Shown here: positions 9,701-63,229 of the stretch, piece by piece
Layout of the letters: every line of letters begins with the position of its first letter
How positions within the stretch are numbered: position 1 is the stretch's first letter
Origin: Malus domestica
Taxonomy: Eukaryota; Streptophyta; Magnoliopsida; Rosales; Rosaceae
NCBI RefSeq assembly: GCF_042453785.1
Contig: NC_091675.1
Location: 2,740,501 to 2,804,500 of the forward strand
DNA length: 64,000 nucleotides
Direction of reading: 5' to 3'
Notes under the pieces: generated by a model
Databases searched by the model: none
Told to the model about the DNA's origin: nothing
Seen by the model: only the letters and a program-made list of their open reading frames with translations
Position numbers and translations under genes: made by a program

Positions 9701-12700
9701 CTCATCTATTTGTTTACAGAACCACAGACTCAACTCAACCTGTTGAGAATATACAAGAAAACGTGTGCATTTAGGTTTAGCTTACCGTCAAATCAGGCAA
9801 AGGGATTTTAACTTTAGTAAGCATTATTTCGCAATTATATGCCCGCCTTATCTCAATCTGCAAGAACCAGTAAATTTCTCATTAGAACTGAGGTGGCAAA
9901 GGAAGACTATATTCAATTAATTCAATAAAACAAAATAAGGTACAATAGGCAACATGCTAGATAGATCCTCACTTCAAGCCAGTTAACTAGCAATAACATA
10001 TTTACCAGATTTTTTCCAATATGCAAAAAAATGACAAAAAGGAGAGCTCCTGCGAGCAATAATAGACTTTATGACCAAGCACAATTGCTATTGGTGCTGT
10101 ACATACTATGAAGCTCCACTTTGCACATACTGCTGAATTAATAATTTGCTCCATAATATACAAGTTACATCAAAAGTGTCCTTGAGGGACCAGGTGAGGA
10201 ACATTACTGATGTAAGCTAGGTCAGGGAAGCCCACCCTGTATTAACAGATCGACACAACTCTAGTTATCCACAAATGAAGTAAAACCAGTATGCAATGCA
10301 AATTACCAGTTGAACTTTTTCAGATTTAGGTCCCTTGGTACGACCACCAGATTTTCCTCCTGTATTCCCATGGTCTGAATTTGTAGTAGCCGCAGAAAAA
10401 AGACTCTCAAGTTCTTTCATGTCAAACTCTGGAGGCCTGGAGCAGAGTAAACAGATTCAGAATAGGGTGCAAACTGTACGAATTTATAAAAACTAATAAA
10501 TTATTTACAGAAGTGGCATACTTGGTTGCTTCATCAGCTTTTTGTGCTTCAGCCCATAAGCTTCCGTGCATCGCTCTTGTTAATTTTAGCCAATGATATG
10601 GCTTCAGATTGGCCTTTTTGGGTTGAGGCTGATTTCTGGAACGTGGATTCATTAGGGCCCTTCCCTTCAGACTAAACGGAACCCCAGAAGGTGGTCCAGG
10701 AATTGAAGGAATATTACCATTACTATCGCTGGAGTTGGATGTGGGGGAACCACCAGATTTTGATACACCATTAGGAAGAGGAGGAGGTGGAACAGGTGGC
10801 ACGGGTGCAGCATTCTGGAATAAAGATTCCTTTGGTGCCAAAGCTGGAGGAGGGGGTGGTGGTGGTGCAGAAGGTGTTACATTCGAAGTTGAGGCAGGGC
10901 CTGGACGTAGAGGAGGTAGAGGAGGTGGAGGGGGACCATACAAGACTGCTGAAGAAGCAGTACCACGGGGTGGAGGTGGAGGGGGAGGGGAAGCTGCAAT
11001 GGAGGGGGCCTTGACTGTGGATGATGGTGGTCTTCCTGAAAAAGGAGGTGGAGGAGGGGGAGATGGGGTTGAAACTGAGTTCTTGACAGAGGATGACATT
11101 CCCTGGGAGGAAGGGGGAGGTGGAGTGGGAGTGGGGGGTGAGACTGAGTCCTTGAGAGAGGATGATGGTCCTGGAAAGGATGGAGGAGGAGGAGGAGCAA
11201 GGGGAGCTGAACTTGAGTTCTTGAGAGAGGATGATGGAGATTCCTCCAAGAAAGAACGGAGCAGAGGAAGAGGAGGGGGAGATGAAATTAGAATTTTGAC
11301 AGGGAGAGATGGAGATGACCCTGAAAAAGATGGGGGTGGAGGAGGGGGAGGGGGAGCGGAAATTAAGTTCTTGACCGGGGAAGATGGAGATGCCCCTGAA
11401 AAATGAGGAGGTGCAGGGGGAGGAGGAATTGAAACTGAGCCCTTGCTATCAGAGGATGAAGATGTCACTAACTGATTACGAGGTCGAGGTCGAGGTGGAG
11501 GTGGAGGGTGGAGAGGAAAAGATGCTGACTGACCTCTACCCTGTAATGTACTTTTAGTGTGTTCGGTAAGCCAATACTCTGGGGAATTTGAAGTTTGTTG
11601 TGGAAGTTCTGGTGGCAGAGGCGAAGGTGGAGTAGCAACAGAAATCTTTTCTACAGTTGCATGCCCAGAAAATTGCAACGAGGAAGGTGGTGGTGCGGGA
11701 AAAGACAACTTACCAGGCTGCAGAGGCTTAGGTAGAGAATCAGGAGCTGATGGGGCATGTGATACGGGAGATACAGTTTCAGGCTGTCGGATTTCTTCTT
11801 CCTTATGATCCTGCAACAGAGCTGTAATGCCGAGGGCTGAGGGTGCACTTTGATATCTTGATATCGGCACAGGCGATCCTTGCAAGGAATTACAATATGA
11901 AACTGGTGCAGATAGGGAACCTTGACGTGCACGCTGAGATATGATTTTAGAATGGGTAGGGCGTAGGAGAGCAGCTTGTAGGTCTTGGGGTTCAATCTTT
12001 TTTCTGATTATACCGCTGTCTAGAGACGGTTGAATGTTGGAGATAGATAGTTTCCCAAGAGCCATATATGGTGGACTCTGGATACTATTTTCTGATGCCC
12101 TTGGTTCTGTTTTACGGCATTCGGGAAGTGATTCTACCAGCAAGTTCGCTGTCTCTGTAGCATGAGCAAAAGCAGTATCATGTTTCCCCTGAGCCACAGA
12201 TACGGTACTCTTGATATCAGTTGCTGATGAGTTCATTTCTGATTTAATAATATTTTCTGTTGCCTTTGGTTCTGATTTAACTCTTCCAGGAAGTGATTCT
12301 ACCAATAAGTTGCCTGCCTCTGTGGTATGAGCAGAAGCACCATCATGCTTCCCCTGAGCCACAGATGTGAGACTCCGGACATCATTTTCTATTGATTTAA
12401 CTTCTGAACTAAGTGTTTCAGGAATTGATTCCAGCAAAAAGCTCCCTGTCTCTGTAGTATAACCAGAAGCACTATCATGTTTCCCCTGAGGCACGAATGT
12501 GAGACTCTTGATATCATTTTCTGAGGACTTCACTTCTGATTTAAGTATTTCAGGAGTTGATTGCAGCAACAAGCTGCCTGTTTCTATGTTATGCAAAGAA
12601 GTACTATCCAGTTTACGAAGAGCACCTGACGAGGCAATCTTCTGGAGTACATGTGTTACATCTGACTTTGGATCTAGCCAATCCACGCTGCTAAACATCT

Positions 12701-14978
12701 CCTGAACCTTTGCAAAAGCTTCCGCAGGAAGGCCATCTTTCTCCTCCATACCAGGCAAATCAATATCTATAAGAGAAGAAGCAGCATCCATCTCCGAGAA
12801 AAGAACCTTCATCCAGATAAAATTATTAACAGTTGTGTTAATGATTTAATTTGTTCCTGAACATGAAGTTGAAATTTCACTAAACAAAAAGATAAAGGAG
12901 AACGCAAAGGGTAGATGAGTACCTCTGCTCTGAAATCCTTGGGAAATTGATCCTTAACATTCCATAAGATGTCTATGTCCTCACGATTAAGCATCAAAAT
13001 ATTGGACCTTATAAAGGCCGTATTGAACATGATCCGAAACATCATCTCTTCGCGTTCCAGATCGCTATCCAGACTAATACACTCTAGAACCACATCACCT
13101 TGGATATGGCAATGTATATCAATTTTAACTAGTTCACAATCTGCCTGCACCAAGAAGTTAAGAATTAAAATGAAGTTCAAGGCAAAGCATCAACATATAG
13201 ATAAATGAAACCATGATTTGCAAATATCCTACTTAAGCTAATAGCACACGAGAACAGACTTCCAGCAACTTCCAATAGTACAATTAAGAACTTAAGAGTA
13301 CAATTGTGGGAAGAGTAAACAATCCAAGTACGCGAGAATAAATTACCAACAAAAAACTCTTTCTTGTTCAGGAAGAGAAAACTACAATCTACAATTACCA
13401 AAGGAAAAAACATATAAATGAGAGTAAAATGACTTAAACCACCTGCTTGTAATGTCGTACTAGTTTGCTCCTTTTTGGTGTTGAGAACAAAACTTTAGGA
13501 GTTCGATCAGCAGCCATAAAAGGGTCCTGCCCATATATTCTAAATATTGGACGGCAACCTCCCTCTCTGTCCATATTCGGAATGAATCTAATGATGATGC
13601 AGTCCAACGTAAGCGCCCTATCCAGTGGAGGCCATTCTGATCCCACATTTCTTCTTGTTATATACTGCAAATACCTCTGTTGCGAAGGCATTGGATTCAA
13701 CGGTGACATTAACTGCAAAAGTTCCCTAGGTGCTTGCTTGTAAATCATGTCCAACGTCTTGTGCTCCTCAGTGTACTGTTTCCTGTAAATCAAGAGTGCA
13801 GCCAGCATGAATGCCAATACCAACCACCCACCTCGTTCACAATGCATCAAGAGCACATTCTGTTGCCCGAGTGAAAGCCAGCTTTCACTTGATCTCAGGC
13901 AGTGGTGGATCGCTTCCATTGTAAGAAGTGGGCAACCTTCATAGTGGCGAGGATAGTCCATTACTGTCATGTCATGCTCAGACAATATGTTGGAAAGCAG
14001 GCTTTGGTGTTCTCCATCTCGAAAGTTAAAGACCATGAATGAAGCATCAGGAAACTGGTCACGCAGTTGACCTGCTATGCCTCCTATGTAGACTTTATAT
14101 TCATCTTCTTCCATAACGTCAGTGGTAAAACAGCAATCAAAAACTACATGTGCAGAGAAACAATTACCAACATGTAAATACACATAGTTTAAATTCTTCT
14201 GCAGCGTAAGTGCATAACGACACACAGAACTCGAGAACAAGCCAGCAAATACAAAACAAATTGTTTCCTTCTGAAACAGTCATCAGCGTTCAATTGTTGA
14301 AGGATATACATATTAGCATGTATATACAGAGCATAAAAAATGGATAAATTCCACATTAGTGCCCACATTGTATTGAGCAAAATTTGTCTATCACCACACC
14401 AAAATAAAAAATTTCATAATTTGTGACTGAGTGGAAATGAAGTACTGACTTTAGATTCATTTCTTCTATCAACTTTAGAGCACAATAGTTAATTGCCAGT
14501 AAAAAAGTTTCTAGGCATACACGGGAACTTTAAACGTGTCCGGCGTGTGCCCACAAATCAACCCTGAACCCTACTATTCCCAGGACATATTAACGGAGCC
14601 TCCCCAAAGTTTGTATCGGTCAAATTAGTGCAGTTCCATTCATGCATACTCTGTCCAACTAATGCAGTTCACTTCATTCTTAGGAATCCCAAAAGACACA
14701 GTAAATATGCATCTCCAAATATAGACATCCTCAAATTGCAAACAATCAGCTCTTAGTTGAGATTCTAATATCAAAACACGAAAAAACGAACAAAAAGAAG
14801 GAAAAGTCCCAGTAACACCAACCACATTCAAGCCTTACGCAAATTTAACAAACATCATCTTCAATAAACCAAATTTGAAAGAAATTAAAGCCCAGAAAAG
14901 CATACCATAAACGCTCTCAGATATCTCCAAAAGCCCGTCCGGCGGCTTCCGGTAGAAGAACTTCCTAAACAACGCCAT
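6759..14978 (-). CDS. class II formin-like protein (PTEN-like, FH1 and FH2 domains; FH18/FH20 type)
   Basis: Nucleates and bundles actin; class II plant formins also touch microtubules and membranes. Seventeen exons give 1483 residues: 14906-14978, 13443-14143, 12923-13144, 10522-12806, 10307-10436, 9786-9857, 9406-9504, 9219-9260, 8787-8867, 8639-8689, 8468-8549, 8184-8278, 7914-7985, 7705-7821, 7373-7441, 7217-7283 and 6759-6952. The start MALFRKFFYRKPPDG is the standard class II N-terminus. A PTEN-like phosphatase and C2 region fills about residues 10-410. Its P-loop reads HCERGGW (125-131) and lacks the catalytic arginine, so it is probably a lipid-binding, inactive phosphatase fold, as in other class II formins. 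A long polyproline FH1 (about 700-1040) leads to FH2, starting at LKPYHWLKL (about 1066). Intron 10 has a GC donor. The leader and upstream DNA hold GA repeats. Confidence 0.92.
8301..8318. repeat. poly(A) run in a formin intron
   Basis: A run of about 20 A on the + strand (T on the gene strand) near the 3' end of a formin intron. Probably a simple repeat or part of the polypyrimidine tract. Confidence 0.4.
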
Positions 14979-15247
14979 TGTTCCTCAAGATCCGAAAACA
15001 CCCCACGAAAAACCAACACCCAAAACCCCTCCAATTCAACCCGCATTGCTCCGAAACGTAAAGCCCATCTCAGCTCGAATACCCATATCACGAAATCCCC
15101 AGAGGAATTAAATAACCAAGCCCCATGAGAGAGAGAGAGAGAGAGAGAGTGAATGTTGAGGAACCAGAAGGAATGGATTTTGCTGGGTTTCTACGGAAAG
15201 TGCTTCTGAGAGACTTAGCTTTCACATTCACACTTATTTGTTGTGTG

Positions 15248-15286
<39 letters not shown>

Positions 15287-15775
15287 GCTTTCAATCAACC
15301 ATGGGGTATCTTCTTCCTACGTTGTATCAGAAAAAATGTAGAGAGAGAAAGAGAGAAAGATGTGAGAGAGAGAAAGAAAGAGGGGGATCTGGGGTTTGTC
15401 TCTCTCTCTGTTTGCGTCTAACGGGTTTAGGAGAGAGAAAGGATGGAATTAGAAAAGAATGATGATTATGACGTGTCTGTCTTTGAATTTTATTTATTTT
15501 CTGTTTTTTTTCTTCTGACTTTTTAAATAATTATTTTACTTGCTTTGGTGGCACATCATCGCACGTGTGTTGTCATGAAGTAATAAAACTATGAAATGAC
15601 GACGCAAGTCATATTGCTGGTCGCATGTTTGTAACAAACAACGGTCACACGTAGAGGGTAGTTTGGTCATTTTATAGGTGATTTAATTCATGCCTTAAAA
15701 TTACATACTACTTTTAAATTCATACATTAACTAAAGTCGCGCACCCAACACTGCCTAACTTGTGAACTCCTACAC
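14979..15775 (-). promoter_or_regulatory. formin 5' leader and promoter region with GA repeats
   Basis: No gene seen. Two (GA)n tracts lie at 15127-15149 and 15252-15281, with looser GA-rich DNA to about 15440. On the formin strand these are CT repeats, common in plant 5' leaders. The sequence GAGACTTAGCTTTCA occurs on either side of the second tract (about 15210 and 15278), so the tract grew with a local duplication. A CACGTG at 15563-15568 is a possible G-box. Confidence 0.45.
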
Positions 15776-16663
15776 AACACGTGAAATTAGCGCTCTCTCC
15801 CTCAACAAAATCCTAGCCGGCTACCTTTATCACTGACGGCCTTTGGCTATGGTTGGGGGCCGGTGGCAGCTTCCCTCCTAACCTTTTCTCCCTTCCTCTT
15901 CCCCCCTCTTTCCTCCTCTTTCCCATCCCAACCTTCCCCCCTCGCCATGCACTACTTTCTTTCCTTCGACACCACATCAACTTCTTCTTTTCGGCCTTCA
16001 CCTACCTCATCTCCCCTCCCTTGCTTCTCTCCCACCATTTTGTATGCAACATTCCTCGGATTTATGCCTTGGATCTAGGCCATGCCCTTTCAAGATTTTT
16101 TTTTTTTTTTTTTGGTTTGGCGTTGGCTTTTCTTGGTGTGGGGTGAATTTGGGTTGCAGGTGGGTTGGATCCACCTTCGTCAACTCTTTTACGAGGTGGT
16201 ATCACCTTCCTCATCTAGTTCTGGTGGCTACATTGACGTGTGCATTCAAATCTAGCGGCTTGGCTTATTCTGCCAGCTCGGTTTGATATGGTGGCTAGGC
16301 TTGTGCAGCTCGGATCTGGTGGCTCCGCTACCTGTTACAGCCAACCCTTTTGGTGCTCGATGTGTGGATGCCAGAACCTCACTCTGGCAAATTTGTAGGT
16401 AATCTTGGCATGTGTGCCTCGTCCCTGTGATGAGCAGACCAACGGATCCCTTCTCGGATTAGTGTAGTTGTTTTCACTCATCTTATGTGCACTGTGGTGG
16501 TGCTGTTGTTTTGGCTAGATTGGTCTTTGCCTTTGTGCGATGCATTTTGTAGTCTCGTCTGTCAACGGTGACTTGATGTGGTCTCGCTCTACCGCGATGA
16601 CTTTATGTGGCCTCGTTATTCAACGATGACCATTGTAGCTGTTGGTATTGCTTTGTTGTGACT

Positions 16664-17570
16664 AGTGGCGGATCTAGGATTCTCACATTGGGTGGTCCTA
16701 ACCACCCAATGTGTCCAAAAAAAGAAATAAACGATAAACTTACAAAAACTAAATAATAGTATTTTTCATTCATAAATCATGGTAAAAACAAAGCTAGGTC
16801 ATCATGAATAAAATCCCTTCTTCTAATTTGTAAATACTTGTCACTTAGTACTACGGTCTAGTGGCATTCTTCTTCACTTGTAAGTGAGAGGTTTTAGGTT
16901 TAATTCTCGCCAAAGGCGAATTTGAACCACATTATTGCTATTCCATTATGAGGCTAAGCCCACCTCTTCTCTCTTAGTGTAGATAATATCAATTGTTAAA
17001 AAAAAAAATTGTAAATACTTTGATAACGTTTCACAATTTTACGAAAAAATTAAAAAAAATGATTTAGATGTAATTTACAAAATACGGGATTTTTGGCACA
17101 TAAAATAGGATTCACAATAAAAACTGCGCCTTTGACCATTTCACCCAATAGAGATTTAACCAAAAAAAAAACCAAATAGAGATTATAAAAATTAAAAATA
17201 AAATAATAAGAAATAGAATAGTAGATGAGAAAGTGCTTTTTAAAAGCAATATTTTAGTAGCAATGGTAGGCCCATGTAGCAGATAAAAGAAGAAGAAAAA
17301 AGAGTTTCAGCCTTCTTCCTCGCGGGAAAGCTGCAACTCCTCTACCTCCTCCATGGATGCACTGCACCAGAATTTTGATTGTACCACGGTCCATCCATAA
17401 CTATGTCATTTAACAAAATAAATTTCCTAGGCAGAGCCCATATAGTCCTAGGCGTGAATATGTCCTCCCTATTGTAATATTTGGAGGGTTCCAGAAGGAT
17501 CTTCATAGGCGTTTTTCTAGCATCCAGGTGGTCCTAGGACCACCTTAGTCCCTATATGGATCCACCCTTG
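16664..17570. mobile_element. Mutator-type MITE nested in the LINE-like copy
   Basis: A perfect 9-bp duplication GTTGTGACT flanks it (16655-16663 and 17571-17579). The ends are inverted repeats: AGTGGCGGATCTAGGATT on the left, and TGGATCCACCCTTG on the right, with GGTGGTCCTA blocks mirrored just inside both ends. It is 907 bp and non-coding, and carries a SINE at 16840-17008. Confidence 0.75.
16840..17008 (+). mobile_element. tRNA-derived SINE inside the Mutator-type MITE
   Basis: The 12-bp duplication TTGTAAATACTT lies at 16828-16839 and 17009-17020. The body begins with a tRNA-like part: GTCTAGTGGCATTC resembles an A box and GGTTTAATTCT a B box. It ends in a short poly(A). The body is about 170 bp, the usual SINE size. 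Confidence 0.7.
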
Positions 17571-19081
17571 GTTGTGACTATCGTTTATTGTGACAGATTT
17601 GTACTAGTGACACTTCACTAGAAGAAAAAAGCTCATCTACCACGGTGGATGCCCGTGGTAGATTGCAATCTACCACGGACAATGTGCCCGTTATTAATCT
17701 GGATGTGATAAAAAGTCACAATTTCAACCACGAGCTATGGCCGTTGTCTAATATGATGCAACCACGGATTGTGCCCATGATAGATTGGAATCTAACACCA
17801 CGTGCACTATAGCCATTGTGGATTCCAAATTGACCACAAACCATGCCCGTTATAAAACAATTCCCAAAAATAAAAAATAAAAAATATTCAATAAAAATTA
17901 TATATAATATTTATATACAAATTGCATATTTACTACAATATAATGATTACATAAAAAACCACATATTCAAAATACAAATATTACAAGTTGTACACTAAAA
18001 CTAACAACAAAACCAATGAGTTATACTAAGTGCCAAATAGGCCTCTAATAGCAAAGACATTGTTAATTGAAGACTACACATTTCTTTGAACACCTCCGAA
18101 CAAAAGACTTGAGAGTGAAATACTGCCTCTAATGCTTGAGCTTCAGAAATTGATGCCTCTCTCTATCCATCTGTATAGACATAAGCCTATGGATGAAAAT
18201 AGTAAATAGATAAACAAAACTTGAAGCTAAATTAACAAGTAAAAATTTAAATAGACGAATCTCTAATGGTCCACACATGACACCAAAAAATTAATCAATA
18301 AAAACTTGAACATTTATACAGAACTAATCTCAACAAGATTATGTAGTGCAAAACTAGCATTGCATTACAGAGAATGGATCAAATGTAGCCAAGAACTTAA
18401 ATTACAATCATCAAATTTCTAAGATATTATTCCTATCCGCTCCACCTCTAAAGCTAGCATTTCTTCATTGCTTCGTTCCATCTCCCAATTGACCAAAGTC
18501 ACTAGCTCATGATCAATTGCTTACACATTCAGGTTATCTAATGCACATAAACCAAACACAATATATAATTACCTGATTAAATTTAAAAAAAAATGGAAGA
18601 ATTGAAATTTATAAACATTAAAACAATAAAATAAAAAAGATGAAGCTTAATTACCCCAAGTGAAAAGCAACCCATTTGATGCAGCAGAGGCGGTGTGCTC
18701 GCGGTCGCAAGCAATGTCCAGCTACGGCCAATTAGCCCTCGCTGTGCACCCAAAAAGCTCCAGAGAATTGCTTCGGGATCCTCAACCATTGCTCCTTCCC
18801 ATTCCGACCGGTCTGCTCGAACTTGCAATATCCCCACACGTAAATCGTCTTCTTCATCGGAATGCTCACCGGCCGGTTGCGACCTAGAAGCTCATCAATG
18901 TCAATTTCCATAAATTCCCTTCACATACTGAACCACAAAGTTGCAAGTCAACAAATCTGACAAAAAATTAACAAATCTTAATCCAATTGAAGGAGAAAGT
19001 TGGGAGCTTCACAAAATGGCTTCTCTGTTTGGTTACCTGGGAAATGGAATAGTGGTGAATTGGGATTTTGTCGGTAGCCAA

Positions 19082-19084
<3 letters not shown>

Positions 19085-19114
<30 letters not shown>

Positions 19115-19263
19115 AGGACTCAAAGTGGACGAGGAAGAAAACTGAAAAATGGTTGTCGTTGGTGAAATATTAAGAGAGAGAGAGATCTCCTGAGGACTCA
19201 AAGTGGACGAGGAAGAAAACTGAAAAATGGTTGTCGTTGGTGAAATGTTAAGAGAGAGAGAGA
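19085..19263. repeat. GA tract plus 78-bp tandem duplication
   Basis: A (GA)n run at 19085-19110 is followed by two near-identical 78-bp units, at 19111-19188 and from 19189. Each begins CCTGAGGACTCAAAGTGG and ends in its own GA run. Lies inside the CACTA element. Confidence 0.75.
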
Positions 19264-19544
19264 GGAGAATGACAAAGGTCGGTTTAATTTCTCACGATTT
19301 GAGGAAGGGGAGTTTTGCAGTTAGCTGATGGGATGAGATAAACCAAAAAATGAAATTTGAATCTCCTTTATATTTTGAAAAGCGGACGGGAGTGTTGTGA
19401 AATTTTCAAATTTCAAAGATGTTTGAAATTTTGCAAAATTCTTGTTCAGCCTCCTCTAGATTTTTTAGTTAAGTGTGTGTGATTCCATCACATATTATGT
19501 CCATGATAGATAACAAAAAGATGATGTAGATGTTAAGCATTGTC

Positions 19545-22221
19545 TGTCACAGCCCGTCCCGGAATTTTTAATTCCGAGGACATGAAATTACGGAAATGTC
19601 CCTAATACGTGACTAAGGTATAATTTTCACTTTGGTAATTAGAGTGGAGACTTAGACTTAAATTTTATGATGGAATTTTATGAAATTGGGATTGGATTGA
19701 ACATGTGGGATCCCCACACCTCAAAACCCTCCCCAATTCCCGTATACTGTCATTCACTTTCTCTCTTCCTCAGACCTCACTCTCTCTCTCTCTCTCTTCC
19801 TCTCCGACGCTCAACCTCACCCAAAACCACCTAAAACATAAACAAACGTCCAAGATAAGACCACATTTGGACTCCTGGAACTTCCACGATCACGTAGACA
19901 TCAATTTCAGGTAAGTTCTACTTCGGAAAACCCTAGTTTTCAAAGTACCCGTGAAATGGCACTGTTCATAAACTCTTAAATGGTGGTGTTTTAGCTTAAA
20001 ACAAGATCACAGTGAGCTTTAGGATGTCCCAAGGAAGCTCGGAGTGCTTCGTTGGAAGTTTTTGGACGTAAGAACACGGAGATCGATAAGTTCAAAGTTT
20101 GGCCGGAGCTTTCGAGGCGTTTTCCGGCGAATCCCCGGCGAGTTAGGAGTTGAGGTAGGTATCAATCTCTTCGTCTCTTCAAGTACTACAACTTTCCTTT
20201 TTGTTTCACTCAATTTCGTTGAGTATTGAAGAAGTTATACTCATTTGAAAAATACTCAGTTTCCGGCAACCTCCGAGGCTTTCGAGGCAGTTTCCGGCCA
20301 AACCACGGAGAACTAGGTGTTGTGCAAGGTACCATTCTTTTTGTCTCTTCAAGGGCTACAACTTTCATTTTTGAATCACTTGATTTCGTTGAGAAATGAC
20401 AAAGTTATGGCAATTTGAAAAACTGTCCAGAAAACAGCCGCCGGAAAAACCAGTCCGGCGACCCAAGGAAGAAGAAGGTGCTACAGTAAAAATAAAAAAT
20501 AAAAATAAAATTATTTTAAAAATATGTCGACGTCCGTGACGTCGAGTAGATCACTGTGGTATATTCATATACCTAAATTGAACACCGTATGAGAAAGTTA
20601 TTGAGGATTGTTGGTTAGGTGTTCAAATAACGTTTTATAGTTTTCACATTTAGGTGAAAATGTGAATTGATGATCCGACCGTTGGATCGTCACCAAACTT
20701 TGATACGTTGTAATACGTAATATTTGAGGATTATTGGAACTTACGGATTGGGAATCCGAGTTACGGATCTTCCGGAATTGGAATTGTAAGTCCATAATAT
20801 AAAATGTTAACCGTCACTTAGTTTTGGAAATTGACGGAGATCCGACCGTTGGATGGTAATGAAATTTTAGGATGTTGTCCTAGAGGTATAATGTGGACCT
20901 CTGGAAGTTATGGATTTAAAATCTGAGTGGCAGATCTTCCGGATCGATCAACGTAGTGACGTATTTTATATAAGTTATATATTTTATCGATATGAATTCT
21001 GAGCCTGGATTTGATTACTATTCTAGGCGGCGATCGTCATGACGCCTTGATGTGTGGTGCTAGGGAGTTGTTGGACGAACTCCAGGTGAGTGGGCAGTTT
21101 TGTTTTCCGTATATATATATTTTTGACGTTTCCCAGAAATTGAATTGAAATGAAAATATGTTTAAAATGAAATGCATATGAGTTATGTGGAAAAACGGGA
21201 AGTGAAATACCATGCATAGAATTGATATGAAAAGTATATAGAAATGTGAGTTGAAATGCCATGCATGAATTAATATATGATGCATATGTATGAATTGGTG
21301 CGGTGGACGCACAGGTAAGAATTGATTTATGATGCATATGTATGAATTGGTGCGGTGGACGCACAGGTAAGAATTGATTTATGATGCATATGTATGAAAT
21401 GGTGCGGTGGACGCACAGGTGAGTATTTATTTCTGTTATGATGATGTTGATGTATATTGAGCTCAAATCCTGCACCATAGTTTAGTGCTTATAGTATTCA
21501 CCGCATCGCACGCTCGCCTTGGATCCAAGTAGATGCTAGTCGTACAGTCCACGCGGAGTGGGTACGACAGGCCAGTCGCGAGAGTGTTAGTGAGATTCCG
21601 ACTGGTGGGTGACCTTAGATTATGTGCACAGATGATTTATGAGAAGCACTAGAGCGTAACTTGTGTGCAGAAGGCCGGACGGGTCACAGAGGTGACTCCG
21701 GCAGAGTGAGAGTGATAGATTTTGAGCTCTAGGTTCAACCGTACAGGGCCATTAGTAGAGGGCCTCCGGTTGATTACTTTCTTGCACCTGATATGATTAT
21801 TGTTGATGCATCCATACTTAACTGTTGAATTAGACATGGCATGGCATGATTGATAAAGAAAAATGTTGAGATAGTAGTTATGAAGTTTTGAGAATATATA
21901 TGTATATTTATATTTTACATTTATGGGAAAGTATACAGGTTTTACGGAGAGGGGTTACAACGTTTTGAGAAATGTTTGGATTTGGAAAAGAATTGTTTTA
22001 CTGACCCACTCAATTTTGGTTTTGCGCCCCTCCAGGTTCAGGAATCACAAATGTGTGGTGACTACGAGGAATTCGACGGTGTTCTGACAGATTGGACAAA
22101 ATTAGGACTCATCTTCGGGTGTATCAACTTAAATTGTATCTTAAAGCTTCCGTACTGTGCAAATGGTTACGTCACTCTCACGTGACGGCCAGCATGCCCT
22201 TCTTCAGGACGGGGTGTGTCA
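19545..22221 (+). mobile_element. solo LTR of an LTR retrotransposon (2.7 kb)
   Basis: Begins TGTCACAGCCCGTCCC and ends GGGGTGTGTCA, so it has the TG...CA ends of an LTR. It is flanked by a perfect 5-bp duplication TTGTC (19540-19544 and 22222-22226). No internal coding region, second LTR or primer-binding site is attached, so it looks like the product of LTR-LTR recombination. A 52-bp unit is tandemly repeated three times inside. A relative in the opposite orientation lies at 61025-63229. Superfamily is not certain; Ty3-type is a guess. Confidence 0.75.
21268..21421 (+). repeat. 52-bp tandem repeat, three copies
   Basis: Three consecutive 52-bp units, each with GATGCATATGTATGAA followed by GGTGCGGTGGACGCACAGGT. 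They begin near 21268, 21320 and 21372 and differ very little, so the expansion is recent compared with the LTR that carries it. Confidence 0.85.
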
Positions 22222-22635
22222 TTGTCCATGATGGTTTTAGTATATTTATAACATTCAATTTTGCGCGTAGTCATTTACTGTTATTTTACAACGAGCTAAG
22301 ATTTGTCCGTGATAAAAACTTGTTATTACTACGTGCTTATTATGCCCGTGGTAAATTTGTACTTTTTATAACGAGCTCATAAAGTTCGTGGTAAAATTGT
22401 CGTGGTAGATGAACTATTATGTTGTGCTTGTGAGCTTGGCGATTGTGTGTTCGTGCTTATGGTAGTCTACTAGGGGTTTACTCTTATTTGTGTGTTTGCG
22501 CAAATTCACTCCAGATCAATTTATTAGTCATTGAAGCATTGTACCTAATGTCACTCTTGTATTTGTTTGTATTGATTAATGAAATACCACACACTATCAT
22601 TTCTTTTCAACGAAAAAAAAAAAACACGTGAAATT

Positions 22636-24724
22636 GAGATTACAACAACGTTCAAAATCACGACGGCTTACAGCGATGGTGGTGCTAGAGGTCGAATTCG
22701 TGTTCTTGGGCTGGTTTGTCCGTAATACTATGATTCGTGATGCAATACTTTGTAATGCAAACCCCACTATCTAGATTGCAATGTTTCTAACTTAAATCGT
22801 TAAATATACAAGGAAAATTTGTTGAAATGGTGAAATTATAAATCTAGTTACTTAAATTTTTTAATATTTAATCGATATGTAGTAAGTATTTGATTATGAT
22901 CAATACAAAAGTTAGACTTCGTATATTATTATTTTCAACGTCAGAATGCACTATGCCTCAAACTTTCGAATGACGTCATTGAGCTTAACAAACTAATATA
23001 TAATGCCTTTATTTTATTTTGCTAATGGATGAATATCTTATATTCGTTAGTAAACAAAGTACTTATAATGTAGATATAATTTATATGGCACTATAGATGA
23101 GTATTATCAATTTGGATTGGTTTACTTTTTTAGTTCAAGTCACACAAATGTAAAGTAATGTAGCAATCTTCTCGTTTGAGATATTTCGTTATATCTTATT
23201 GACTCTCATTCCCATCTTGTAATGTTGTTTGATGATCAAAATCGTCTACTTTATAGATTACTTTTCATCTAAATGAACTAAATTCTAAATCGTTTGGTCA
23301 TCTAATTATTATCCAATAAATAGACGAACCATGTTTTCACTTAAACACTGAAGTTTTGACAATGTCAATTGAACAATTAAATGATTTTGCTTTGGTTGAT
23401 TTTTTGCATAGTGGAAAGGTTATACAAATAATGGACAATTCTGGTCATCAAGCAACATTGCAAGATGATTAATAGAGCCGAGAAGGTTTAAGTTAGAAAG
23501 TTGCTAGCATTCCCCCAAGATGAATGCCTAACGATAGAGATCATACATTCTAAATCTGCAGTTAACAAAAACTAAAGTATAAAATATAAATATTCATACA
23601 ATTTGAAAACAAAGAATATAAATATTCATACAATTTGAAAACAAAGTATTTACATTAGCTTAATGTTCATATTGCATAGTTAATGAGGCATTAAAAAAAA
23701 AGAGTCAGCTGGTGACTTCGCTACGCTAGTCCATCATTTTGGGGTCCGGGATCAACCAAAAAGTCTACGTTGTTCCACACTGCCTGGACAAATGTGATAA
23801 TACAACTTGTCATTTTGCTTCATTTTTTTAATTACTGTTTAAAGATGTTGGATTTTGTAATATTTGTCAACGTCAGTGACTTGTTACCGTTAAATCCAAT
23901 CACCATAAAACAAAACTGAGTGACGCCATGGAAATTATTTAGTTAAGAGGAACTGTAATACTACAAAAATTTAACCTGAAGAATGAGAGGAAGCATACCA
24001 GATTGGTCAAACATAAACATTTTTCCAACTAATATTCATTGACCAACAAAAAAAGCACGGATTATATTTTTTAAACGGAACATAATTACGGATTTTCAAT
24101 CATTTGGATGTCCACAATTCCGACCAAAATCCGTAAATTTGTACATGGATATAAGATAATTAAAATTAAGACAACTAATCAAATAATTGAGGAGCACTCT
24201 AATAGATTTTCATTATTTGGTTGGCCGTATGTCGTTATCACGACGAACATGTTGCACAAAACTTGGGGCGACAAAGCAATAGCTCAAAACCTAAAAAGTA
24301 AACCAATTATTTGTATTTTTCAAGACTTTAATATGAAATGGAGACGTTAAAGTAGCGGTGTTCAAAATTATTCGTGCAATGCTTTATGAATGTAGGTTCA
24401 TGGTACTTGAATATCTTAGAATATATGGTGTTGAGTTTCTACCTATACGTTTCAAGTTTGAAACTTTCGCTTCCTCTCAATAATAATAATAAAATAAATA
24501 AAAATGGTAATTGAATTTTTAATAAAAATTTTGACGTACTTCTAATAAATTGCTTATAAGAAAAAACGCTTTATTGAAGAAAATTGCTTCTAAATCAAGC
24601 ATGTAACGTGAGTCCATGGTGATATATATAGGGTATTGCTTTTTCATTTATGGTCGTAAGATCAAATAAATTAAAAAGAATCAAATAACAAAAATTAATA
24701 AAGGTTGTGTGGAAGTAGCATCCA

Positions 24725-61024: not shown

Positions 61025-62067
61025 TGACACACCCGATCGAGATCAAGGCATGCTGGCCGTCACGTGAGAGTGACGTAGCCATGTGCACAGTGCGGAAGCA
61101 ATAAATATAAGAAATATATGAATAATTAAAAACCAAATTACTAGAATGCAGTACTAAACAGAAAGTGATAGGAGTTAGTTACAACAGTAAACACTCATAA
61201 TCAAAGCATAAAAGTCTAAGTGCAGTCCAATAGGACAAGTACAGTACCAGGAATGTCCTACTATTATTTAGATAAGTAAGAATTGCCGACGTCCTCAAGC
61301 CACCAACAACAAGCTTCTTAAAACCTAGAGGGGCGCAAAACAGAAAACGTGAGTGGGCAAAAACAAATGTTTTACAAAATCATTTCATTTATCAACATAC
61401 TAACCCCCTTGCTGTAAAACATGTAAGATTTTCCCAGAATTAAGATATAAGTATATACATAGATATACATATACATACATATATATATATATATATATAT
61501 GAAATCATAACAATTCACTTCATACTTCACATAATCATATTCATATGTATGTCATGCCAAAATATAACAAAGTAAACAATCCAGGTAACAACGATTTCAT
61601 GGAAATATGATATGTTAGCCGAAACCCCTGAGGTGGTCTGTACAGCTGAATTCATAACTCAAAAGTCAATCTAGCCAGAGTCACTACAATGACATATACG
61701 GCAATATACTACACATAAGTCAGAACCACTAAAAAGGGGTCTGTACGACAAGATTAGGTGTAATATAGTTATGCTCAATTTTACTCTCTCATAATAGCCG
61801 GACGATAAATCGCTAGTCACCTACGAGTCGGAACCATAATTAAGGTCTGTATGACAAGACTGTGCACCTAAGTTGGATCCAATATGAGCATATAGTGCGG
61901 GAGGTGACGTAAATAAACAGGCATGTACTTCACATCTTTGGCTAAATTACAAACACCCTAGGTGCAGTTTTATGAGCTCAACATTAGTCAATCACATATC
62001 ATATCATCAATTATTCCTATAATCAAACATAACTTACATGAACTTACATGTGCCTCCACAGCACCAC

Positions 62068-62114
<47 letters not shown>

Positions 62115-63229
62115 ACCATGAAATGCATAATCAAATTATAAAAGCATTTGGCATATTATTTCAACGCATACTTTCCTTAAAAATGCATTTATGGGAAATA
62201 TATCAAGTATATAAGTATATACTGAAAACAAAAGCCTACTCATTGATATGTCGACTGGTCGTAACCCCTGAGTCGCCCCTGGATACGTTTATCCTCAAGA
62301 TAAGTCTCACATATATGCGAATTAACTATAAAAACGTTATTTTAAAGCACATGGGTAATACTAGCTAATAATTTTTCATACATTGCTCAATTTGGGTATA
62401 TGAATATACCACAGTGATCTACACAACCTTACGAATATCGTGATATTTTTAGAAAAAAATTTCTATGGCTCACGCGCCGAGGAGGGTACGGCCTCACACG
62501 CATCACCTTTAACCTCCAGACGCCGGAACTGTGTCACCGACGCCGAATTCTGGGCAGACCTGCAACTACCCATTTCTCACTCGTTTTTGCACCATTTTTC
62601 ACGTATTTTATACCAAAATGAAGCTCTTTACTTGTAGAACACAATCATACTAATTTAAAGTTCTAAAAGTCACGGAATCACACCGGAGAATTCCAAGAAA
62701 ACCGACCAAACTTCCTCCACACGATCCCAACGTCCAAAACCTTCAAACGAAGCACTCCGAGCTTCCTACAAGCTTCAAATTCCCGAAAACATCCATAATT
62801 ACGTGTGTATGAACAGTGCACAAATCGGGGGTTATGAAAAACTAGGGTTTTTGAAGGTATCCTTACTTGAAATGGGTACCAATCGACTCGTCCAAGCTTC
62901 ACAAACACAATGGTATCATTTTCTTCCTCGATCAGTGAGGTTTGAGAGGTCCTTGGTGTTTGTCCGTACAAGAAGAAGGATAGAGAGAGTCCGAGATATG
63001 ATAGAGCATGGGAAGAAGAGATAGAAGGGATAGGTGATGTGTGTGGTCCATAACTAGTCAACATTCAGTCATAACCAAGGTTTCTTAGTTCCTAATTGGT
63101 TCCAAAAACTTAGGGAAACTCAATTAATCCCATTTGAAAATAAATCACACACCACGCACTTTAACGTCTAAGGGCAAAATTGTCATTTCACATCAACGAA
63201 AAATTAGTTATTCGGGACGGGCTGTGACA
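61025..63229 (-). mobile_element. solo LTR, relative of the 19545-22221 copy, opposite orientation
   Basis: Read on the minus strand it starts TGTCACAGCCCGTCCCG and ends GATCGGGTGTGTCA. A perfect 5-bp duplication ATTAA flanks it (61020-61024 and 63230-63234). The last part, CGTCACTCTCACGTGACGG and CCAGCATGCC, is shared with the other copy, as is the inner GCGCCCCTC.AGGTT block. The middles have drifted far apart, so these are related subfamilies or old copies. It is 2.2 kb with two (TA)n runs and no internal retroviral region. Confidence 0.75.
62070..62111. repeat. (TA)n microsatellite in the solo LTR
   Basis: About 21 TA units, one of the longest simple repeats in the window. Confidence 0.9.

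Follow-up and report, generated by a model that had tools for sequence, protein, structure and literature searches.

The window analysed here is a 64-kb stretch of the Malus domestica genome (C15:2740501-2804500), and at positions 15776-22635 it contains a nest of five transposable elements that adjoins a minus-strand, formin-type gene. The outermost layer is a poly(A) retroposon, within which two DNA transposons sit side by side. One of these is a hAT-like miniature inverted-repeat transposable element (MITE) that holds a short interspersed element (SINE). The other is a non-autonomous CACTA element that holds a solo long terminal repeat (LTR) together with a piece of an RCC1-family gene, the latter missed by an earlier, sequence-only reading of the locus. 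The nest is real, well preserved, and made up of known kinds of element; it is a worked example and not a new system. Transposon nests are used as clocks, in which the inner layer is taken as the younger, and with every target-site duplication (TSD) perfect this rule nevertheless misorders one of the five layers here. Sister copies of the layers in the same genome (651,096,769 bases in 19 contigs) expose this misordering of preloaded elements, and the same check reveals cargo, in the form of a SINE and a gene piece, moving inside DNA transposons near a gene. Coordinates given below are those of the window and refer to the plus strand unless stated otherwise.

All five pairs of TSDs claimed by the sequence-only reading are present where it placed them, and the two members of each pair are identical. 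The 13-bp AACACGTGAAATT (starting at 15776 and 22623), the 9-bp GTTGTGACT (16655 and 17571), and the 12-bp TTGTAAATACTT (16828 and 17009) have no third occurrence anywhere in the 64-kb window; the two remaining pairs are CTT (17613 and 22427) and TTGTC (19540 and 22222). The chance that two random positions of the window match is about 0.02 for a 3-mer and about 0.0016 for a 5-mer. CTT and TTGTC are too short to mean much alone, and their support therefore comes from the element ends and from empty sites in relatives. After a crude low-complexity filter, 261 exact 13-mer pairs lie no more than 7 kb apart in the window. A recurring 13-mer is thus not rare by itself; what is rare is its position directly after a run of A. 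There are 19 A-runs of at least nine bases in the window, six of which are followed by a 12-mer that recurs elsewhere in it. In only two of these six cases (16998-17008 and 22613-22624) does the second copy of the 12-mer lie at the opposite end of an element; of the remaining recurrences, three are distant and one is 40 bp away. Copies of the layers elsewhere in the genome break at the proposed boundaries, so that the five-layer nest with real boundaries stands. The possibility that the layers form one contiguous repeat is rejected, since the matches of relatives end at those same boundaries.

The outer retroposon occupies 15789-22622 and is 1104 bp long without its inserts. It is flanked by the exact pair of AACACGTGAAATT at 15776-15788 and 22623-22635, the right copy following the poly(A) run. 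Its first 525 bases, used as a query, have 42 matches in the genome. Among the 41 that are not the query itself, 24 start at query positions 14-21, directly after the 13-bp TSD, 17 start further in, and none starts inside the TSD. The relatives examined number 17, consisting of the seven best and ten picked from the remaining 34 rows, with 24 rows left out. In 14 of the 17, the MITE and CACTA sites are both read through, and the alignment spans the element almost end to end, in one piece in ten cases and in two pieces in four. Thirteen of these have no more than two indel bases across query positions 855-931, and the other (L016) has a 32-base deletion. Partial matches, which do not extend past both insert sites, account for the other three (L002, L013, and L017). 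In relatives of the retroposon the target of the MITE is present in single copy and that of the CACTA element as a single CACTT. The match of L002 (C7:29.30 Mb) ends at position 820 and gives way to sequence starting CACTACTACAAAAG, perhaps a different CACTA element.

Most relatives of the retroposon start with a CT-rich leader followed by AAAAGCTCTCTCC. The leader is missing from the window copy, which for this reason looks slightly 5'-truncated. Exact TSDs were found in four of the 17 relatives, with lengths of 10 (L005), 14 (L009), 16 (L010), and 15 bp (L011); the other 13 show either no TSD or a candidate with mismatches. The window copy yielded no coding sequence; its longest stop-to-stop frame is 134 amino acids, and a Pfam search of three of its frames gave no match above the cut-off. 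The open reading frame (ORF) scan, which covered the sequence between the matched parts of L009-L018, found no frame of at least 200 amino acids. On these grounds the frames of the outer element were rejected as the protein of a long interspersed element (LINE). The earlier description of the element as LINE-like holds for its mechanism, in view of the poly(A) and the 13-bp TSD, but in this family of about 1.1 kb no coding sequence was found. Two frames of about 310 amino acids, reverse-transcriptase-like by eye, are found at 2720-4597 of L011, downstream of the retroposon, and probably belong to a neighbouring LINE; a frame with such a motif lies about 1.4 kb from the element, outside its TSDs.

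The class of two of the layers can be argued in more than one way. The outer copy might be an internally deleted LINE whose coding partner has both of the same ends. Its poly(A), its 13-bp TSD, and a start slightly inside that of its relatives are what LINE machinery would produce, and the reverse-transcriptase-like frame of L011 could be cited in the same sense, except that it lies beyond the TSDs. However, the near end-to-end alignment of 14 of the 17 relatives, together with the lack of long frames between the matched pieces of L009-L018, speaks against such a partner, and we consider a deleted LINE somewhat unlikely. For the MITE (TAGTGGCGGATC...GGATCCACCCTTG, 16663-17570), the question is whether it is of Mutator type, as had been proposed together with the 9-bp GTTGTGACT. 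Mutator elements generate TSDs of about 9 bp, and hAT elements have termini of the pattern YARNG. For the window copy, L021, and the shorter copies L056/L057, a matching ninth base makes 8 and 9 bp fit equally well. It is informative in three sister copies, all of which were read by eye as having an 8-bp TSD: L020 (TTCGTCAT), L022 (TGTCCCCT), and the copy at C15:18.19 Mb, where seven of the eight bases match. The reading of L022 requires a right end two bases short of that of L021. By eye, the left ends of the MITE copies are TAGTG or CAGTG (YAGTG) and the right ends CAAGG or CAGTG, which fit the hAT pattern; the C15:18.19 Mb copy, which starts AAGTG, does not. The duplication in the window is accordingly read as the 8-bp GTTGTGAC (16655-16662 and 17571-17578), the ninth base being a chance match. 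A Mutator-type MITE is distinctly unlikely, and its rejection in favour of a hAT-like element, which the 8-bp TSD and YAGTG ends fit better, is made with moderate confidence from these sequence features.

Inside the hAT-like MITE, a SINE with a poly(A) tail occupies 16840-17008, between exact copies of TTGTAAATACTT at 16828-16839 and 17009-17020. It belongs to a high-copy family, for which the genome search returned 5616 first-look candidates; 40 of these were scored, and the 40 listed matches start at query positions 1-6. Of the 39 listed besides the window copy, 19 were examined. They have A-rich tails, and some have clear TSDs of their own, whereas in at least four no TSD was found. High copy number, a fixed 5' end, poly(A), and a TSD are thus all present. 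A B-box-like GTTTAATTCTC was noted by eye only, and neither the Rfam search at the gathering threshold nor the tRNA search of the 64-kb window gave a match.

The three SINE relatives most similar to the window copy (L020, L021, and L022) have the same SINE TSD, with one substitution in its left copy in L021, and the same MITE sequence on both sides. They match the window between 16663/16664 and 17566/17570 and no further than the ends of the MITE, outside which both flanks and TSDs differ from those of the window. In the copy at C15:18.19 Mb (L061) MITE sequence likewise continues into the SINE; the structure there is more complex and includes two partial 3' ends. This copy brings the number of SINE-bearing MITE copies, that of the window included, to five. 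With the SINE at an identical site in four other copies of the MITE, it follows that the SINE preceded the jump of the MITE into the retroposon, and the order of MITE and then SINE, as it had been read at this locus from the nesting, falls. Distances to the window copy for the MITE and SINE parts, respectively, are 0.023 and 0.040 for L020, 0.058 and 0.068 for L021, and 0.054 and 0.075 for L022, so that both parts place L020 nearest. In all six pairwise comparisons the SINE part is the more diverged (few sites are involved), as would be expected of a SINE at least as old as the MITE copies. Two short copies of the MITE, L056 (C12) and L057 (C10), lie at a shared insertion site. As the same short insertion occurs on two chromosomes in flanks that are about 84% identical, it suggests an insertion older than a duplication of that segment. 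One way to read their junction is as the product of a deletion, with a GCC match of three bases that begins at the first bases of the SINE, and both may have descended from a SINE-bearing copy.

The CACTA element extends from 17616 to 22426, with an exact pair of CTT at 17613-17615 and 22427-22429, and is 2129 bp long without the LTR and one TSD of the latter. Its genomic relatives were sought with its left part, which gave 49 matches with 40 of 266 candidates scored, and five loci (L040-L044) were examined. CACTA ends with 3-bp TSDs are seen in L040 (ATA) and L041 (AAT), both of which have the terminus TTGTAGTG; the right end of the window copy is degraded, its TTGTG being 3 bp short of that terminus. 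The motifs CCACGG and GCCCGT are found in the outer 260 bp of the element and not in the middle. The two ends of the element are only moderately similar to each other, with a local score of 31 compared with a 99% point of 26 and a maximum of 46 among 500 internal controls. L043 stops before the LTR site, and L044 is related to the gene piece.

This gene piece, an RCC1-family fragment on the minus strand at 18458-19491, was recognized from its relatives in the genome, where it matches DNA at several places. Its layout appears to be that of a 5' leader, exon 1, an intron, and the start of exon 2, with the frame broken by a stop and a frameshift. The first cargo peptide is only weakly similar to HERC2 (phmmer E 0.0036), with no Pfam RCC1 match, and the second piece, of 22 amino acids, to HERC1 (E 0.00049), with no Pfam match. 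What settles the RCC1 reading is the existence of genes on C17 (L045) and C9 (L046) with open exons that encode RCC1 repeats (PF00415; 7.8e-11 in exon 1 of L045, 1.5e-12 in exon 2 of L046). Their identity to the cargo is 75-76% in and around exon 1 and 84-85% where exon 2 begins. The closest relatives outside CACTA elements, L044 (89%) and L047 (88%), are themselves broken. Because the intron has been kept, capture took place at the level of DNA. The whole cargo region is common to L040-L042, and most of it to L043, so it was captured before the window copy of the CACTA element moved. The leader part of the fragment contains a near-perfect tandem duplication of 78 bp (19111-19263), most of which is left out of the alignment in L044 and in the matches at C8:5.42 Mb and C16:30.89 Mb.

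The solo LTR within the CACTA element is 2677 bp long (TGTCACAGCCCGTCC...GGACGGGGTGTGTCA, 19545-22221). It is a single TG...CA unit between exact 5-bp repeats, TTGTC, at 19540-19544 and 22222-22226. All three CACTA relatives that reach its site cross it without an LTR, having a single TTGTC (L040 and L042) or TGTC (L041). The LTR itself contains three repeat copies spaced 52 bp apart (21260-21435) and a 150-bp duplication (20103-20422). A related single LTR of 2205 bp lies elsewhere in the window, on the minus strand at 61025-63229, with a TSD of its own (TTAAT). The two are identical at 1170 of 1995 aligned positions, share the same first 17 bases, and are 87% identical over the last 76.

From these observations a history of the locus can be proposed, which as a whole (retroposon, then preloaded MITE and CACTA element, then LTR in the CACTA element) we regard as highly probable. 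A non-coding poly(A) retroposon would have come first, by target-primed reverse transcription with a 13-bp TSD, upstream of the formin-type gene. Two DNA transposons would then have entered it, the hAT-like MITE with the SINE already aboard and the non-autonomous CACTA element with the RCC1-family piece already aboard. An LTR retrotransposon would have entered the CACTA element and later have been reduced to a solo LTR, presumably by recombination between its two LTRs. This amounts to about four insertions at the locus; the gene piece was captured, and the SINE inserted, earlier and elsewhere. The sequence-only reading held that the relative order of all five insertions could be read here, and it was partly right. 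The retroposon precedes the MITE with its SINE and also precedes the CACTA element, and the LTR is younger than the split of the CACTA family and probably younger than the arrival of the CACTA element. The SINE was misplaced, and which of the MITE and the CACTA element came first does not follow from the nesting, because the two sit side by side. The nearest sisters (a distance of 0.023 for the MITE and 94% identity for the CACTA element) provide upper limits only, which do not order the two. Nor is the nest datable, as had been claimed, since identical TSD pairs and a single LTR leave no internal divergence.

Two other orders have to be weighed against this history. Insertion of the MITE into the retroposon, with the SINE entering the MITE at this locus only afterwards, would account for the nesting and for the intact 12-bp TSD. 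It is contradicted by L020-L022, with the same SINE at the same base of the MITE in different outside flanks, and by L061, and could be rescued only through gene conversion of the SINE between MITE copies; we consider it very improbable. It is also conceivable that the LTR was already inside the CACTA element when the latter jumped here. Nesting is compatible with this, and an LTR-bearing sister could be unassembled or could lie among the unscored candidates of the CACTA search. The three relatives that reach the site are, however, 91-94% identical to the window copy and free of the LTR, and prior loading of the LTR is in our view unlikely.

Several observations count against the proposed history, in which the SINE and the MITE arrived together and the LTR followed. 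The excess divergence of the SINE in all pairs (in L021-L022, 7 of 159 sites compared with 10 of 833 in the MITE) is not predicted by simple joint travel, and we attribute it to a faster rate of change in the SINE. No copy of the MITE was found in which the SINE target is clean and single, and both of the SINE-less copies, L056 and L057, are also without 17021-17309. Directly to the left of the LTR site, L040-L042 have 14-15 bases that are missing in the window copy. The empty sites are paralogous or belong to a duplicate of the locus on C8, all within one assembly, and none is allelic or orthologous. This C8 locus (L049) aligns with 13800-15574 of the window at 85% and with 23003-23487 at 75%, and is presumably homeologous. 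Between the aligned flanks it has 683 bp, compared with 7428 bp in the window (581 bp with the nest removed); the nest is therefore absent from it, which counts in favour of the proposed history. With 89 of 211 and 178 of 354 positions identical, however, the 683 bp do not align, and the precise target site before insertion cannot be seen in them.

The layers have counterparts in systems that have been described previously. The Sadhu retroposons of Arabidopsis are characterized (PMC2848041) as non-coding elements of about 0.9 kb with a polypyrimidine patch after a 5' motif, a 3' poly(A), TSDs of 7-18 bp, and divergent subfamilies. The outer retroposon is also non-coding and has a polypyrimidine patch, poly(A), a 13-bp TSD, and divergent subfamilies, at about 1.1 kb compared with about 0.9 kb. 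It differs in that the 5' motif of that account, CAATCGTTSC, is absent by eye from the starts of its relatives, and in that it comes from another plant family; the likeness is one of anatomy (PMC2848041). Since the motif is missing, we do not file it as a member of Sadhu and call it, by analogy, Sadhu-like in mechanism. For the MITE and its passenger, the nearest parallel among the sources consulted is MER6, reported as a mammalian MITE derived from a Mariner element and carrying a V-SINE domain (PMC6887750). In both cases SINE-derived sequence has been multiplied by riding a DNA transposon. The difference from that description (PMC6887750) is that here the SINE, complete with poly(A) and both TSDs, is found in a hAT-like MITE, in five copies including that of the window.

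The CACTA element resembles Pack-CACTA and Pack-TYPE elements, as they are outlined in PMC8903248, in having non-autonomous CACTA ends around a host-gene fragment and in the capture of that fragment at the DNA level; it differs from that outline (PMC8903248) in that the reading frame of the cargo is already broken. Ratios of solo to intact LTRs of 11.32-11.46 are given for apple GDDH13 and Gala, and of 7.43-8.98 for several assemblies of Maleae and Prunus mume (PMC11197308); with ratios as high as these in apple the solo LTR is ordinary. Nesting itself is called common in LTR retrotransposons (PMC6911290), and nested insertions of Mutator-like elements have been treated as well (PMC3903597). 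The literature that was searched gave no description of this nest or of a SINE in an apple MITE, which is not a claim that none is in print. The chances seem to us evenly balanced that, in the apple lineage, the hAT-like MITE carries the whole SINE as a standing passenger, the two being multiplied together by cut-and-paste transposition, and that the outer layer represents a family of non-coding, Sadhu-like retroposons from beyond the Brassicaceae, maybe one not yet described.

The gene beside the nest, at 10422-14279 on the minus strand, was assigned by profile match. One of its ORFs gave a Pfam match to PTEN_C2 (1.6e-8), and another matched FH2 at 0.026, which is below the cut-off. The nest begins about 1.5 kb upstream of the first long ORF of this formin-type gene. 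Close to the start of the nest, at 15340-15440, is a GA-rich stretch that is CT-rich on the gene strand.

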